Positions 1 through 23,209 of a stretch of DNA of 64,000 nucleotides are shown piece by piece. The notes beneath the pieces are model-generated. The model was not told the DNA's origin. It searched no databases and saw only the letters and a program-made list of their open reading frames with translations. The DNA comes from Pedosphaera sp. (lineage in GTDB: Bacteria > Verrucomicrobiota > Verrucomicrobiia > Limisphaerales > UBA9464), in assembly GCA_009695205.1 (NCBI GenBank), contig SIBK01000007.1, positions 1 to 64,000 on the forward strand. The letters are read 5' to 3'. The translations under genes and the position numbers were made by a program. Within the stretch, counting starts at the first letter, position 1. Every line of letters begins with the position of its first letter.

Positions 1-241
1 TGATGAATTTTTCGCTCAATAAGCCACGGCCACTGGCGTTTTCGCCACGCTGTTCGAGCCGGTAGATCACGGCGGATTTGCTCTCGTGCCAGGCGATACG
101 TTCAGGACTTTTCTTGCCAGGGCCGCCACCCCAATCGGGACCCCGTTCGTAGGAGGGGACCTCGGTGGCGGTGTAGGCCAAGCGAGCTTGAAGTTCAGGG
201 CTTGCGCGTTGGTAGGCTTCCAGGCTCCAGGCCTGGGGCAC
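1..241 (-). CDS. Unrecognised partial protein, cut by the window edge
   Basis: The reverse strand is open from about 256 to the left edge, in a frame that reads like real protein: VPQAWSLEAYQRASPE near a possible GTG start at 241 and ENASGRGLLSEKF at the edge. Codon choice looks coding, and the frame continues off the window. I do not recognise the family. It follows the DruA-like relic on the same strand but in another frame, so it may be a separate gene or the far side of a broken one. Function is not assigned, and the start is uncertain because a stop lies only a few codons upstream. Confidence 0.3.
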   Translation of the reverse strand, partial: MPQAWSLEAYQRASPELQARLAYTATEVPSYERGPDWGGGPGKKSPERIAWHESKSAVIYRLEQRGENASGRGLLSEKFI

Positions 242-299
242 CGGGTTGAACCGGAACTAAAGTCACAGGGCTCACTTCCCGGAGTGAAGCGCTCCAAGG

Positions 300-470
300 G
301 GCGGCGAAATCCTTAAGCTGTCCGCGCCCATCGCGCCAATCCCAGCGCTCACACAACTCGCGGGCAAGAGGTTTGCGGCTCCAGTCCCGATGAACCTCGC
401 ACATCTCTCGAAGCCATCCCAAATCCTCGTCGTAGACTGTGCGACCTTGCAAGTAGAGCGTCGATACCAT
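300..470 (-). pseudogene. Truncated DUF4338 (DruA-like) relic
   Basis: About 57 codons from an ATG at 470 carry the typical N-terminal signature of DUF4338 proteins: HRDWSRKPLARELCERWDW followed by GQLKDFAA. In intact family members this helix-turn-helix-like segment is followed by several hundred residues (the DruA subunit of Druantia anti-phage systems, and transposon-linked relatives). Here the similarity stops at about 300 and the frame runs into unrelated sequence. It is therefore a broken remnant and no longer a functional protein. The DUF4338 assignment is from memory of the motif; whether the source was a defence or a mobile gene cannot be told. Confidence 0.45.
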
Positions 471-623
471 GCACAGCCTTTTGCCTCATCCGACGAAGGT
501 AGTTCAGCAAAACCTCCAACAACTTCGGGATGCGCCCATTTCCTTTGATGCGATTCATCCGTCCTTGGAATTCCTCCATCGAAGCCCTTTCCTTCTGCCG
601 CCGACCGGGGTTGAATACGCCCA

Positions 624-19852: not shown

Positions 19853-20893
19853 TTACACCCGGAACTTCGGATCCCGGATGTGCACCCAACAGTGAACGTG
19901 GGGCGATCCGCGGAAATACCAAACCATATCCGGCCCCTCGATCTGCCAAACATCCCAAACGCCATCAGTCCCAAGGTCGTCCTGCTTAAAAAATGCCAGG
20001 CTCAGATTCTCAATACCCTGGGCTTCCACCAACTTCATCGCCTCGTCCGTATCCGGCTTCCGGAACGGACTCAACAAATCGCCCATCACTTTCTGGACAA
20101 GCCCGCGCTGATCTTTCGCTAAATCGGCTACTCGGATCCCCGATAGACCCTCTGCCCGCCCGCTCAACTTCACGGTCTCAGCACGCTTTTCTCGGCGCCC
20201 CTTGCCATTGATCAGTGCGGTCTCCCGTTGGCGTCCGTCCAGAGCCTGGAACACGTCGTTCACTCGACGCGCCTGAAACCAGAATACGTTGCCAGGATGA
20301 TCGGACGGTTCGGTGTCGTTGGTCCCGGCTTGATGTCCGTAAAAGATCGGACCACCAAATGCGACACCCGCGACCGAATCCCCGTCGCAACGCCGCGTGC
20401 AGTGACGGCCCGTCAATACAAACTCGAAACCCTTTGCGTTTGGCTGACCAAACAACGCAACCGAAACGCCCCCTTCAAATCCCTTCCCCTCCGCATCGTG
20501 AATCATTTGTTCCATGGCACGATCGGCGAACTCGGGCGTATGCAAACCACGATAGATCTGGCGCACCAAATCCTGTTGATCCGCAGTGAGCAGTTCACGA
20601 ATCGGCTTCTTGGTGATGAGCCAGTTATTGTCGATCTCGCGACGGAGTGGATGATCAAACTCGAAACAGACTGTCGCTCGCTGTTCGGGCGAAAGAGACT
20701 TGTACAACTGCGACGCCAGTGTTTCGGAGGTGTCATGGGGAGACGGAGCCGCCGCTACCGCGAAAGGATACCCGAGGGCGCCTGCGGCTACGGCTACGGC
20801 ACCTGCGGTCGAGGTTTTGAGAAATGACCGGCGGTCAAGAGTTGAAGGAAACGCGCAATCACACCGGTTGAGATCGGAAAATCGGGGGTTCAC
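19853..20893 (-). CDS. DUF3500 protein, exported
   Basis: About 346 residues from a GTG at 20893, starting with a leader containing DRRSFLKTSTAGAVAVAAGA (Tat-like, but with Asp-Arg-Arg) that ends near AVAAAPSP. The remainder matches the DUF3500 pattern: YKSLSPEQRATVCFEFDHP, the GFEFVLTGRHCTRRCDGD segment, GGPIFYGHQA, DHPGNVFWFQ and the C-terminal GSPHVHCWVHIRD. The function of DUF3500 is unknown; conserved His and Cys residues near the end could bind metal. The open frame continues to 21052 but enters the palindromic repeat, so the longer start is rejected. Confidence 0.85.
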   Translation of the reverse strand: MNPRFSDLNRCDCAFPSTLDRRSFLKTSTAGAVAVAAGALGYPFAVAAAPSPHDTSETLASQLYKSLSPEQRATVCFEFDHPLRREIDNNWLITKKPIRELLTADQQDLVRQIYRGLHTPEFADRAMEQMIHDAEGKGFEGGVSVALFGQPNAKGFEFVLTGRHCTRRCDGDSVAGVAFGGPIFYGHQAGTNDTEPSDHPGNVFWFQARRVNDVFQALDGRQRETALINGKGRREKRAETVKLSGRAEGLSGIRVADLAKDQRGLVQKVMGDLLSPFRKPDTDEAMKLVEAQGIENLSLAFFKQDDLGTDGVWDVWQIEGPDMVWYFRGSPHVHCWVHIRDPKFRV

Positions 20894-20949
20894 AATCCGC
20901 AGCGTACCAAGGTTTCCTTGGAATGGAAGAGAAAGCGAACGGCGCCCGT

Positions 20950-21296
20950 GACGCGGGGCGCATTCCGAAGTTGTTGGCACACGTGCATTCTTAAGGCGCG
21001 GAGCGCCGCCGGAAAGTAGCCCACGGCGCCAGTCGTGGGTCTCGACACGCACGCTCTCAAGCCCCGGAGGGGCGACGGAGATTTGCGCAGCGCTGCCGTC
21101 CTCGTTCTCTGTCGCCCCTGGCGGGGCTTGGACCTATCGTGCATACGGTCCCATGGCTCCCGCCATGGGCTACTCTCTGCCGCTGCTCCGCAGCTTTGCT
21201 CCGAGCCTCACCCACGTGTTGGCAAACTTGAAAAATCGGCTAATCGCGGGCAGTGCGAATTGCGCGCGCCAACAACATCGGGATGCGCCCCGTGAC
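20950..21296. mobile_element. MITE-like nested palindromic element
   Basis: A 347-base non-coding element. Imperfect terminal inverted repeats of about 33 bases (20950-20982 and 21264-21296, roughly 26 matches) share CGGGGCGCAT and TTGTTGG blocks. Inside are two further complementary pairs: 21016-21041 with 21148-21173, and 21058-21081 with 21106-21130 (cores AAGCCCCG, AGGGGCGAC). The inner pairs share one centre near 21094 and could fold into a 158-base hairpin. It encodes no protein I can support. It sits between the divergent DUF3500 and SGNH genes in a 576-base gap; from 21297 to 21469 I see only a small hairpin. Confidence 0.55.
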
Positions 21297-21469
21297 GCGC
21301 GACACGAACGGAGTGATCTTCCACCTCTGGGTGAACTTCCGGGCGCTCGCAGTTGAGGATTCCGTTTCGGCAGCGGCGCCATGAAGTGTTAGTATCCCCA
21401 GGATACGGCAACAAGGACTTCCCTTCGAAGGCTCGGTAAGGCTATGTTTGGCGAATAAAAACCTTTTCC

Positions 21470-23209
21470 ATGCATTGCTGGCTTTGCGCCGTTGTAGGGC
21501 TCTGTTGCTTCCTGCCGGTCGGATTCGCCGCTGAACAAATGCCAGACGGACGCATTACTTTCGGAGTGACGGCGGTGGGAGACACGGCGAGCTGGGAATT
21601 TAAGCCTACGCGCTGGGGCCGATATGATATCGAGGCGACCGTCTCAGCCGGGGCTGCTGGTTCCGAGCTGCAGGTTGAAATCGCCGGTCAGACGTTGACG
21701 GCCCGCTTGCCCCCCAATGCCGACGGAGTGAACCGGACGACCGTACCTGTCGGCCGGTTCTACCTCGCGAAGTCGGAGCCGTTCACGGTTCGAGCGGGTC
21801 CGAAGCCAGGGTCGACGGCCCCGTTCACACTCGGAGGCATCACACTGCGGCCCGCACCCGAGGGCGATGCTGTCGTTCAGAAACCAACCGGCGAGATTTT
21901 ACTCCGCTCCCGCGATGCCACGACGCACAGCGTGATGATGTGCTATGAGCCGGCGACGAACAAAAACTGTCTGGGCTACTGGGGAAACCCCACCGACTGG
22001 GCTGACTGGGAATTCACCGTTATGCAGCCTGGCGCCTTTGACCTGGAAGTCTGGCAAGGTTGCGGCAACGGAAGTGGTGGGAGTGATGTAGCGGTCGAAG
22101 TCGGGGGCGAGCGGTTCATGTTTGTTGTCGAGGAGACGGGTCACTTCCAGAACTTTGTCCCGCGCCGGCTCGGGCGAGTGATGTTGGCAACCGTCGGGAA
22201 GCATTCCCTCGCCATTAAACCGCAACGCAAGCAGGGCGGGGCAGTCATGGACATCCGGCAAGTGAAGCTGGTGCCCGTCGTCAGCGGCGACGAGCCCGCG
22301 CCGGGAGCGCGCGCCCTCGTGGCGGCAAACCGCGTCGTGTTCCTTGGCGACAGTATCACCTACGGGGGCGAATGGGTGGAATTCGTCGAGACGTGGCTGC
22401 GGTTGAAGTTCCCCGGGGCCAGTGTGGGGTTCCTAAATCTGGGTTTGCCGAGCGAGACTGTCTCGGGGTTGTCCGAGCCCGGCCACGCGGGCGGAGCGTT
22501 CCCGCGGCCGGGCCTGCACGAGCGCCTCGGCCGTGTGCTGGAAATAGCGAAGCCAGACCTGATTGTTGCCTGCTACGGGATGAACGATGGCATCTATTAC
22601 CCCTTCGGTGAGGAGCGTACGAAGGCGTTTCAGGACGCGATGCGCCGACTCCGTGAACGCGCGGCCCATGAAGGCGTGCGCGTGCTCCACATAACGCCGC
22701 CGGTGTTCGACCCCATGCCCTACGGGGGTCGGACGCTGCCGGCCGGACTCGCGGAATATCCTACGCCCTACGAAGGCTACAACGGCGTGCTCGACCGCTA
22801 CTCCGAATGGCTCCTCAAACAGCGCACGAACGGCTGGGAAATCGTCGATGCGCATGGGCCGATGAACCGTTTCCTCGCGGACCATCGCCGGGCGGACCCG
22901 AAGTTCCTGCTCGCCAGCGACGGGGTCCACGCGAACACACAGGGCCACTGGCTCATTGCGCGGGAAGTTCTTCGCCATCTTGGGGCGCCCGACGCTCTGG
23001 TGTCCGCTGACACACCCGACGCGCTCGCTAAATTCCATCCGAAAGGTGCGGAGGTGCTGAAGCTCGTGCAGCAACGCCAGCGGGCGCAGAAGGACGCATG
23101 GCTCACGCACGTCGGCCACGTCCGTCCCGGCATGAGCAAGGGCAAGCCCTTAGCCGATGCCGATCGTGAAGCCGCAGAGGTGACCGAGAAACTGCGAGCG
23201 CTACGTTGA
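21470..23209 (+). CDS. Secreted SGNH/GDSL-type hydrolase with N-terminal beta modules
   Basis: A 579-residue exported protein: signal peptide to about residue 20, two beta-rich modules (about 25-130 and 140-270; the second resembles sugar-binding DUF5077-type modules: WGNPTDWADWEF, GAFDLEVWQGCG), then an SGNH hydrolase domain (about 285-520). The catalytic blocks are GDSIT (Ser295), NLGLPSE, YGMNDG (Asn372) and SDGVHANTQG (Asp/His). It probably de-esterifies acetylated or otherwise substituted polysaccharide outside the cytoplasm. The PSD1-DUF1501 pair starts 141 bases downstream on the same strand, so the three may act on one substrate. Confidence 0.88.
   Translation: MHCWLCAVVGLCCFLPVGFAAEQMPDGRITFGVTAVGDTASWEFKPTRWGRYDIEATVSAGAAGSELQVEIAGQTLTARLPPNADGVNRTTVPVGRFYLAKSEPFTVRAGPKPGSTAPFTLGGITLRPAPEGDAVVQKPTGEILLRSRDATTHSVMMCYEPATNKNCLGYWGNPTDWADWEFTVMQPGAFDLEVWQGCGNGSGGSDVAVEVGGERFMFVVEETGHFQNFVPRRLGRVMLATVGKHSLAIKPQRKQGGAVMDIRQVKLVPVVSGDEPAPGARALVAANRVVFLGDSITYGGEWVEFVETWLRLKFPGASVGFLNLGLPSETVSGLSEPGHAGGAFPRPGLHERLGRVLEIAKPDLIVACYGMNDGIYYPFGEERTKAFQDAMRRLRERAAHEGVRVLHITPPVFDPMPYGGRTLPAGLAEYPTPYEGYNGVLDRYSEWLLKQRTNGWEIVDAHGPMNRFLADHRRADPKFLLASDGVHANTQGHWLIAREVLRHLGAPDALVSADTPDALAKFHPKGAEVLKLVQQRQRAQKDAWLTHVGHVRPGMSKGKPLADADREAAEVTEKLRALR

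Follow-up and report, generated by a model that had tools for sequence, protein, structure and literature searches.

The window analysed here comprises 64,000 nucleotides of a Pedosphaera sp. genome (contig SIBK01000007.1, positions 1 to 64,000), an assembly of 4.95 Mb in 142 contigs that is 93% complete. Between a DUF3500 gene on the minus strand and a GDSL-lipase gene on the plus strand, probably in their divergent promoter region, lies an element whose exact boundaries, 20956 to 21290, were given by its aligned copies. An inverted-repeat search of positions 20600 to 21600 returned exactly three pairs of complementary arms and no others in this surrounding kilobase: an outermost pair at 20947-20983/21263-21299 (37 nt, 81%), a middle pair at 20993-21039/21150-21196 (47 nt, 74%), and an innermost pair at 21068-21081/21106-21119 (14 nt, 93%). 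The two inner pairs are centred at 21093.5 and 21094.5, and the centre of the outer pair lies about 29 bases to the right. Folded as single-stranded DNA, the 335 bases of the element reach −99.2 kcal/mol, compared with a mean of −69.6 kcal/mol for shuffled sequences (z = −7.8), and 0 of 100 shuffles folded as well. A first-pass annotation of the same DNA had described a nested, MITE-like element at 20950-21296 with three layers of arms, the inner two sharing one centre. The repeat search and the fold bear out the three layers, and the common centre holds to within one base; the interval did contain the element and ran slightly into the flanks, because 20947-20955 and 21291-21299 are target duplication. 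That annotation had also named the lack of any other copy as grounds for giving up its reading; the host genome holds 47 matches, at least 8 of them full length at 84 to 100% identity and about 40 partial.

Table 1. Features of the window described in the text (window coordinates; TIR, terminal inverted repeat)
Feature	Position	Strand	Remarks
Outer MITE	20956..21290	.	Gene-less; 335 bp; 8 full-length copies in host genome
Left target-site duplication of outer MITE, CGTGACGCG	20947..20955	.	Identical to 21291-21299
Right target-site duplication of outer MITE, CGTGACGCG	21291..21299	.	Identical to 20947-20955
Left TIR of outer ISKra4-type MITE, GGGCGCATTCCGAAGTTGTTGGCA	20956..20979	+	Inverted-repeat search; TIR-core count
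Right TIR of outer MITE	21267..21290	-	Inverted-repeat search
Inner element, inverted Acido-Lenti-1 doublet	20993..21196	.	204 bp; IS200-like Y1 element without transposase gene
Left Acido-Lenti-1 terminus (RF01687)	20994..21039	-	40.5 bits
Right Acido-Lenti-1 terminus (RF01687)	21150..21195	+	49.7 bits
Left inner hairpin, AAGCCCCGGAGGGGCGACGGAGA	21059..21081	+	Subterminal hairpin preceding tnpA in full-length elements
Right inner hairpin, TCTCTGTCGCCCCTGGCGGGGCTT	21106..21129	+	Complementary to 21059-21081
Left end of multicopy IS, same TIR (at 516-535), runs off contig	1..537	-	Broken copy; DruA-like N-terminus

The outer layer is a MITE, in line with the MITE-like element of the first-pass annotation, and its outer arms are genuine TIRs. 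Aligned copies fix the ends as GGGCGCAT...ATGCGCCC flanked by a 9-bp direct duplication, and the TIRs of about 24 bp read GGGCGCATYCCGAWGTTGTKGG. Six copies could be tested for the duplication, which is exact at three (the window copy, CGTGACGCG; C3, GAACTGCAG; C140, GATGCCGAG), carries one mismatch at two (C44 and C17), and was not found at the sixth. The TIR core matched the genome 93 times, compared with a single match for a reversed control pattern. Genomes of the same genus hold 163-bp MITEs bounded by the same TIR, with unrelated interiors and 9-bp duplications, and the host genome itself contains a 90-bp relative of the MITE (C44:1454-1543) that is free of Acido-Lenti-1, the inner motif described below, and is flanked by the exact duplication AAGCTCCAC. 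On two different contigs, element ends (L287, C44:308; L121, C50:177) share the exact 9-mer TGGTGAATG, and the two flanks of the C44 element itself differ; the combination suggests inter-copy recombination or a mis-join.

Mobilisation in trans had been proposed for the gene-free element, and a candidate source is present in the form of a multicopy insertion sequence (IS) in the host genome that has the ends of the MITE and 9-bp duplications. The TIR core stands at many IS ends, including the one at the left edge of the window, which reads into a DruA-like (PF14236) N-terminus. Many TIR-core matches are found some 150 bp short of a contig end, a position expected of a longer repeat that breaks the assembly. 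The IS ends at contig breaks are of two types, and identical 9-mers join one type to the other three times (AAAGGAAAT, ATCGGCTGC, and TATCCGGTA; the first is common to the left IS end of the window and a right end on contig C71). We estimate that chance would yield <0.001 such pairings in about 90 comparisons, so that the two types are taken to be the two ends of one IS, with left and right ends connected by target duplications and sequence overlap only. On C43, the right end codes for the C-terminal part of an ISKra4 transposase, which scores 84.4 bits against a whole-protein cut-off of 205, a shortfall expected of a fragment, and on contig C124 (L079) a DruA gene adjoins an ISKra4 transposase that scores 198.6 bits against the same 205-bit cut-off. 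The assembly holds no IS copy that is both complete and intact, the interior being absent at the contig breaks, and at the ends matching those of the MITE the ISKra4-type transposase was seen as a C-terminal part. ISs of the ISKra4 group have inverted repeats of 18 to 39 bp ending in C and duplications of 8 to 9 bp, and some carry extra genes (PMC3942029). The elements described here resemble them in TIR length, terminal C, 9-bp duplications, transposase homology, and extra genes, and differ from the group and from MITEs generally in a TIR sequence that has so far turned up in these Verrucomicrobia alone, in the DruA-like passenger gene and, for the window MITE, in carrying a second transposon.

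That second transposon is the inner palindrome, which the first-pass annotation had taken for part of a single nested element, missing that it is another, unrelated mobile element. Both of its termini score above the 37-bit threshold of the covariance model for Acido-Lenti-1 (RF01687) and have the two-hairpin, 46-nt structure of that family, which was catalogued as a likely RNA of Acidobacteria and Lentisphaerae whose role is unknown (Weinberg et al. 2010, PMC2864571). Relatives conserve the inner ∼205 bp alone (query positions 38 to 245), without the outer ends, and a plain, single-layer MITE was rejected since they retain the inner doublet by itself. Acido-Lenti-1 is abundant in these relatives, with at least 97 matches in G001, 92 in G002, 83 in G023, and 57 in G027 (range, 48 to at least 97). 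The host genome contains nine close pairs, all nine in one orientation and 183 to 206 bp long, and across all listings 62 of the 69 close pairs are inverted in one polarity. The outer lengths of the pairs fall into two classes, 147 to 293 bp and 638 to 768 bp. The foot beside the hairpin is NTAG, with T, A, and G nearly invariant; REPs carry GTAG at the matching position (PMC3733652). In one locus (L160:1938-2267), open frames run through the doublets and encode recurring peptides (EGAERRQT..HGVSRGYRRAK); such frames probably give rise to spurious hypothetical proteins in these phyla.

The long length class holds a gene: in G002, a Y1 transposase of 150 amino acids sits between two doublets. 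With this single protein as the query, and by protein similarity alone, 18 tnpA loci were found in Verrucomicrobia, Acidobacteria, Planctomycetes, Calditrichaceae (Calditrichota), and one Deferribacteres metagenome-assembled genome. Acido-Lenti-1 stands inverted on both flanks of tnpA in 15 of the 18, mostly 32 to 68 bp from the gene (at one of these, L190, the right copy was seen as an inverted arm without an Rfam match); in the other 3, no Acido-Lenti-1 match was found. Across the family genomes, too, roughly half of the Y1 genes had no Acido-Lenti-1 match, and some of these are other Y1 types. The ends of the L195 element are inverted copies of each other over 51 nt (94% complementary). A second inverted hairpin pair, AGCCCCGGAGGGGCGGCAGA, lies just inside each element end, adjoining tnpA, and corresponds to the innermost layer of the window; the motif is present on both sides of tnpA in L195, L190, and L197, and it recurs in Limnoglobus, in the full element as well as in the doublets. 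Limnoglobus roseus, whose genome is complete, has a single tnpA-bearing element of 641 bp alongside six doublets of 172 to 178 bp, which align to the first ∼90 and last ∼90 bases of the element, the gene alone being missing; no target duplication was visible at these six doublets. Because they align to both element ends and their inner hairpins match, the doublet is the transposon without its gene. An intact cognate Y1 tnpA was not found in the host genome, whose only full-length Y1 match of the type (L031, C89:68511-68855) has an in-frame TAG, and none of the Y1 loci checked there, L031 included, has an Acido-Lenti-1 neighbour. A record titled Akkermansia muciniphila (L185, CAMDJH010000183.1) has a transposase locus that matches G002 exactly, the two transposases being identical; as G002 belongs to the same genus as the window, the species label of this record is doubtful.

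The proteins match Y1_Tnp with up to 103 bits, have the HUH motif, the Tyr, and the Gln invariant, and carry the motifs DHVH, WQ, and Y---Q--HH. Three of four pass the cut-off of the IS200/IS605 model (NCBIfam NF033573), and that of the REP-associated transposase model (NF047646) is failed, at 22.6 versus 80 bits. Hairpins just inside the ends, a short foot sequence, and the lack of a target duplication are further traits of IS200/IS605; each end here has two hairpins and an NTAG foot, and the Limnoglobus doublets showed no duplication. In classical members of that family, the two ends are generally not inverted repeats of each other. The Acido-Lenti-1 ends differ in being inverted copies, as in REPINs and TIRtrons. 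Subclass 1.2 of TnpA_Y1 (Quentin et al. 2018, PMC6006769) shares the protein features (about 148 amino acids, DH[IV]H, WQ, Y---Q--HH); it is described as low-copy, found mainly in Cyanobacteria and Bacteroidetes, and as a rule lacking typical terminal structures, whereas the elements here are from other phyla and have clear inverted termini and many miniature derivatives. In TIRtrons (Di Nocera et al. 2013, PMC3733652), too, tyrosine transposase genes lie between long inverted repeats, some of which form repeat families, and Acidobacteria are among the groups reported to have them. GGGGWSAS, the TIR motif common to TIRtrons, was not seen in Acido-Lenti-1 elements, and most TIRYTs belong to TnpA_Y1 subclass 2.1 (PMC6006769). 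The two were compared by common motif and subclass, and an overlap of TIRtron ends with Acido-Lenti-1 is possible.

REPINs and their RAYT transposases (Bertels and Rainey 2011, PMC3116915; Nunvar et al. 2010, PMC2817692) are another close system: common to both are inverted hairpin doublets whose TAG foot lies outside the hairpin, many copies, and clusters beside a Y1 HUH gene. The doublets could on this basis be REPINs in the strict sense, made by a RAYT (TnpA_REP class 2) and not by an IS200-like transposase, a possibility that we regard as unlikely. The NCBIfam scores speak against it, and the Y---Q--HH signature is that of TnpA_Y1 subclass 1.2, not the NP motif of class 2; a link to a class 2 REP-associated tyrosine transposase was not seen, and the failed cut-off led us to reject the strict assignment. 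The elements further differ from REPIN/RAYT systems in having two hairpins per terminus, in doublets of about 170 to 206 bp with a further inner hairpin pair, and in the persistence of single-unit elements with tnpA between the ends. What we describe is a REPIN-like system that belongs to an IS200-like transposase: it behaves as a REPIN/REPtron system does and is not classed as one because it fails the class 2 transposase test.

The first-pass annotation had offered a structured RNA as an alternative to a mobile element. The match to an Rfam family gives this option some substance, and Acido-Lenti-1 might be a true small RNA that rides on transposons and, for example, regulates tnpA: the family is curated, its scores here exceed the gathering threshold, and small RNAs regulate some IS genes (ISPpu9, PMC8450116). 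Covariation is strong as well. In 44 termini (43 distinct), 98.2% of the stem cells pair and two-sided changes occur at 11 of 13 stem pairs, so that compensatory changes, whose absence had been named as part of a refutation of the earlier reading, are present in the inner motif. This covariation is almost without G-U pairs, which make up 1 of 549 paired cells in these termini versus 41 of 718 pairs in 33 tRNAs of the host genome (Fisher P of ∼1e-9, indicative only, given the non-independence of related sequences). When the set is widened to 81 termini, G-T pairs account for 11 of 1,015, still below the tRNA control, and mirror-image C-A mismatches number 14; the lack of C-A pairs in the tRNAs is uninformative, as Aragorn takes standard pairs only. 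That G-T is no commoner than C-A is expected of a hairpin that acts as DNA and is read on both strands. Copies at both ends of tnpA are inverted, which places at least one on the antisense strand, and the two discrete outer lengths match those of the complete element and of its gene-less form. Judged by these patterns, a small RNA is quite improbable, and the RNA-gene part of the earlier option is opposed by the inverted termini of a transposase gene, the two size classes, and the near-absence of G-U, which point to DNA hairpins at transposon ends. With many copies, inverted doublets, two sizes, and covariation almost without G-U, Acido-Lenti-1 is best read as a transposon terminus, and the sequences suggest that the family is transposon DNA rather than an RNA gene. 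Unlike the family as filed, it is here the terminus of an IS200-like element and its miniature derivatives. Titles and abstracts naming Acido-Lenti-1 or RF01687 (subscription journals and preprints being outside the scope) contained no link to transposons.

How the transposon terminus came to lie within a MITE is addressed by doublets elsewhere. In G012 (L203 to L222), doublets sit inside a different TIR element with the ends TATTGATCCTCGCTCAATAGGGTGACC and its near reverse complement; it is about 290 bp long, has more than 12 copies and sharp boundaries, and is possibly TA-targeting. In G001 and G002 (L223 to L240), many doublets lie inside a third TIR element with the ends TGGAGATTGGCCATT, copies of which often stand beside other short palindromes. 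Palindrome targeting or the amplification of rare events may place doublets inside TIR elements. That the 335 bp are one element, with the doublet integral to an ISKra4-type MITE, would fit the host genome, where doublets are mostly inside the MITE; it is very improbable, as doublets occur MITE-free in relatives, beside tnpA, and inside these two other, unrelated TIR elements, and the MITE exists without a doublet. Given the 90-bp relative without a doublet, insertion of the doublet into the MITE is probable. As the host genome yielded no intact cognate tnpA, the present spread of the doublet is most likely by way of the MITE. Chance palindromes, rejected on the fold (z = −7.8), or an assembly artefact, which the several copies at contig ends (where assemblies break) might recall, have a negligible likelihood given contig-interior copies with target duplications and the presence of the inner element in finished isolate genomes.

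The feature is thus very probably a chimera of two nonautonomous elements, an ISKra4-type MITE carrying an IS200-like Y1 derivative. Boundaries, duplications, copy number, ends shared with an IS, tnpA between inverted termini, and the equivalence of the doublet to the element minus its gene were read directly from the sequences. As to chemistry, we infer that the outer MITE would be moved as double-stranded DNA by a DDE transposase (Mutator-like, ISKra4 group) from the IS with the same ends. The inner doublet, comprising the inverted termini and inner hairpin pair of an IS200-like Y1 (HUH) element with tnpA deleted, would be transposed as a single strand with tnpA supplied in trans, and the transposase may recognise the hairpin and NTAG foot at each end, by analogy with TnpA_IS200 and TnpA_REP and their own ends. 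The doublet would have entered the MITE by transposition and, in the host genome, would spread passively along with it.

REPINs were proposed to stem from palindromes flanking an IS200-like element (Bertels and Rainey, PMC3116915). We tentatively put forward, as a possibility that we do not favour outright, that Acido-Lenti-1 elements are a living IS200-to-REPIN intermediate, with a subclass 1.2 transposase, inverted double-hairpin ends, high-copy doublets in several phyla, and a single-strand preference for the tips of other palindromes. Such a preference, if true, would explain the presence of doublets in three unrelated TIR elements of three related lineages. Full-length elements and doublets coexist in a finished isolate genome, which makes the proposed step in the origin of REPINs testable. 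For an Rfam "sRNA" family without known function since 2010, the analysis offers a concrete identity, and it implies that annotation pipelines label transposon ends as RNA genes. In motif surveys, DNA hairpins might generally be distinguished from RNA genes by covariation confined to Watson-Crick pairs.
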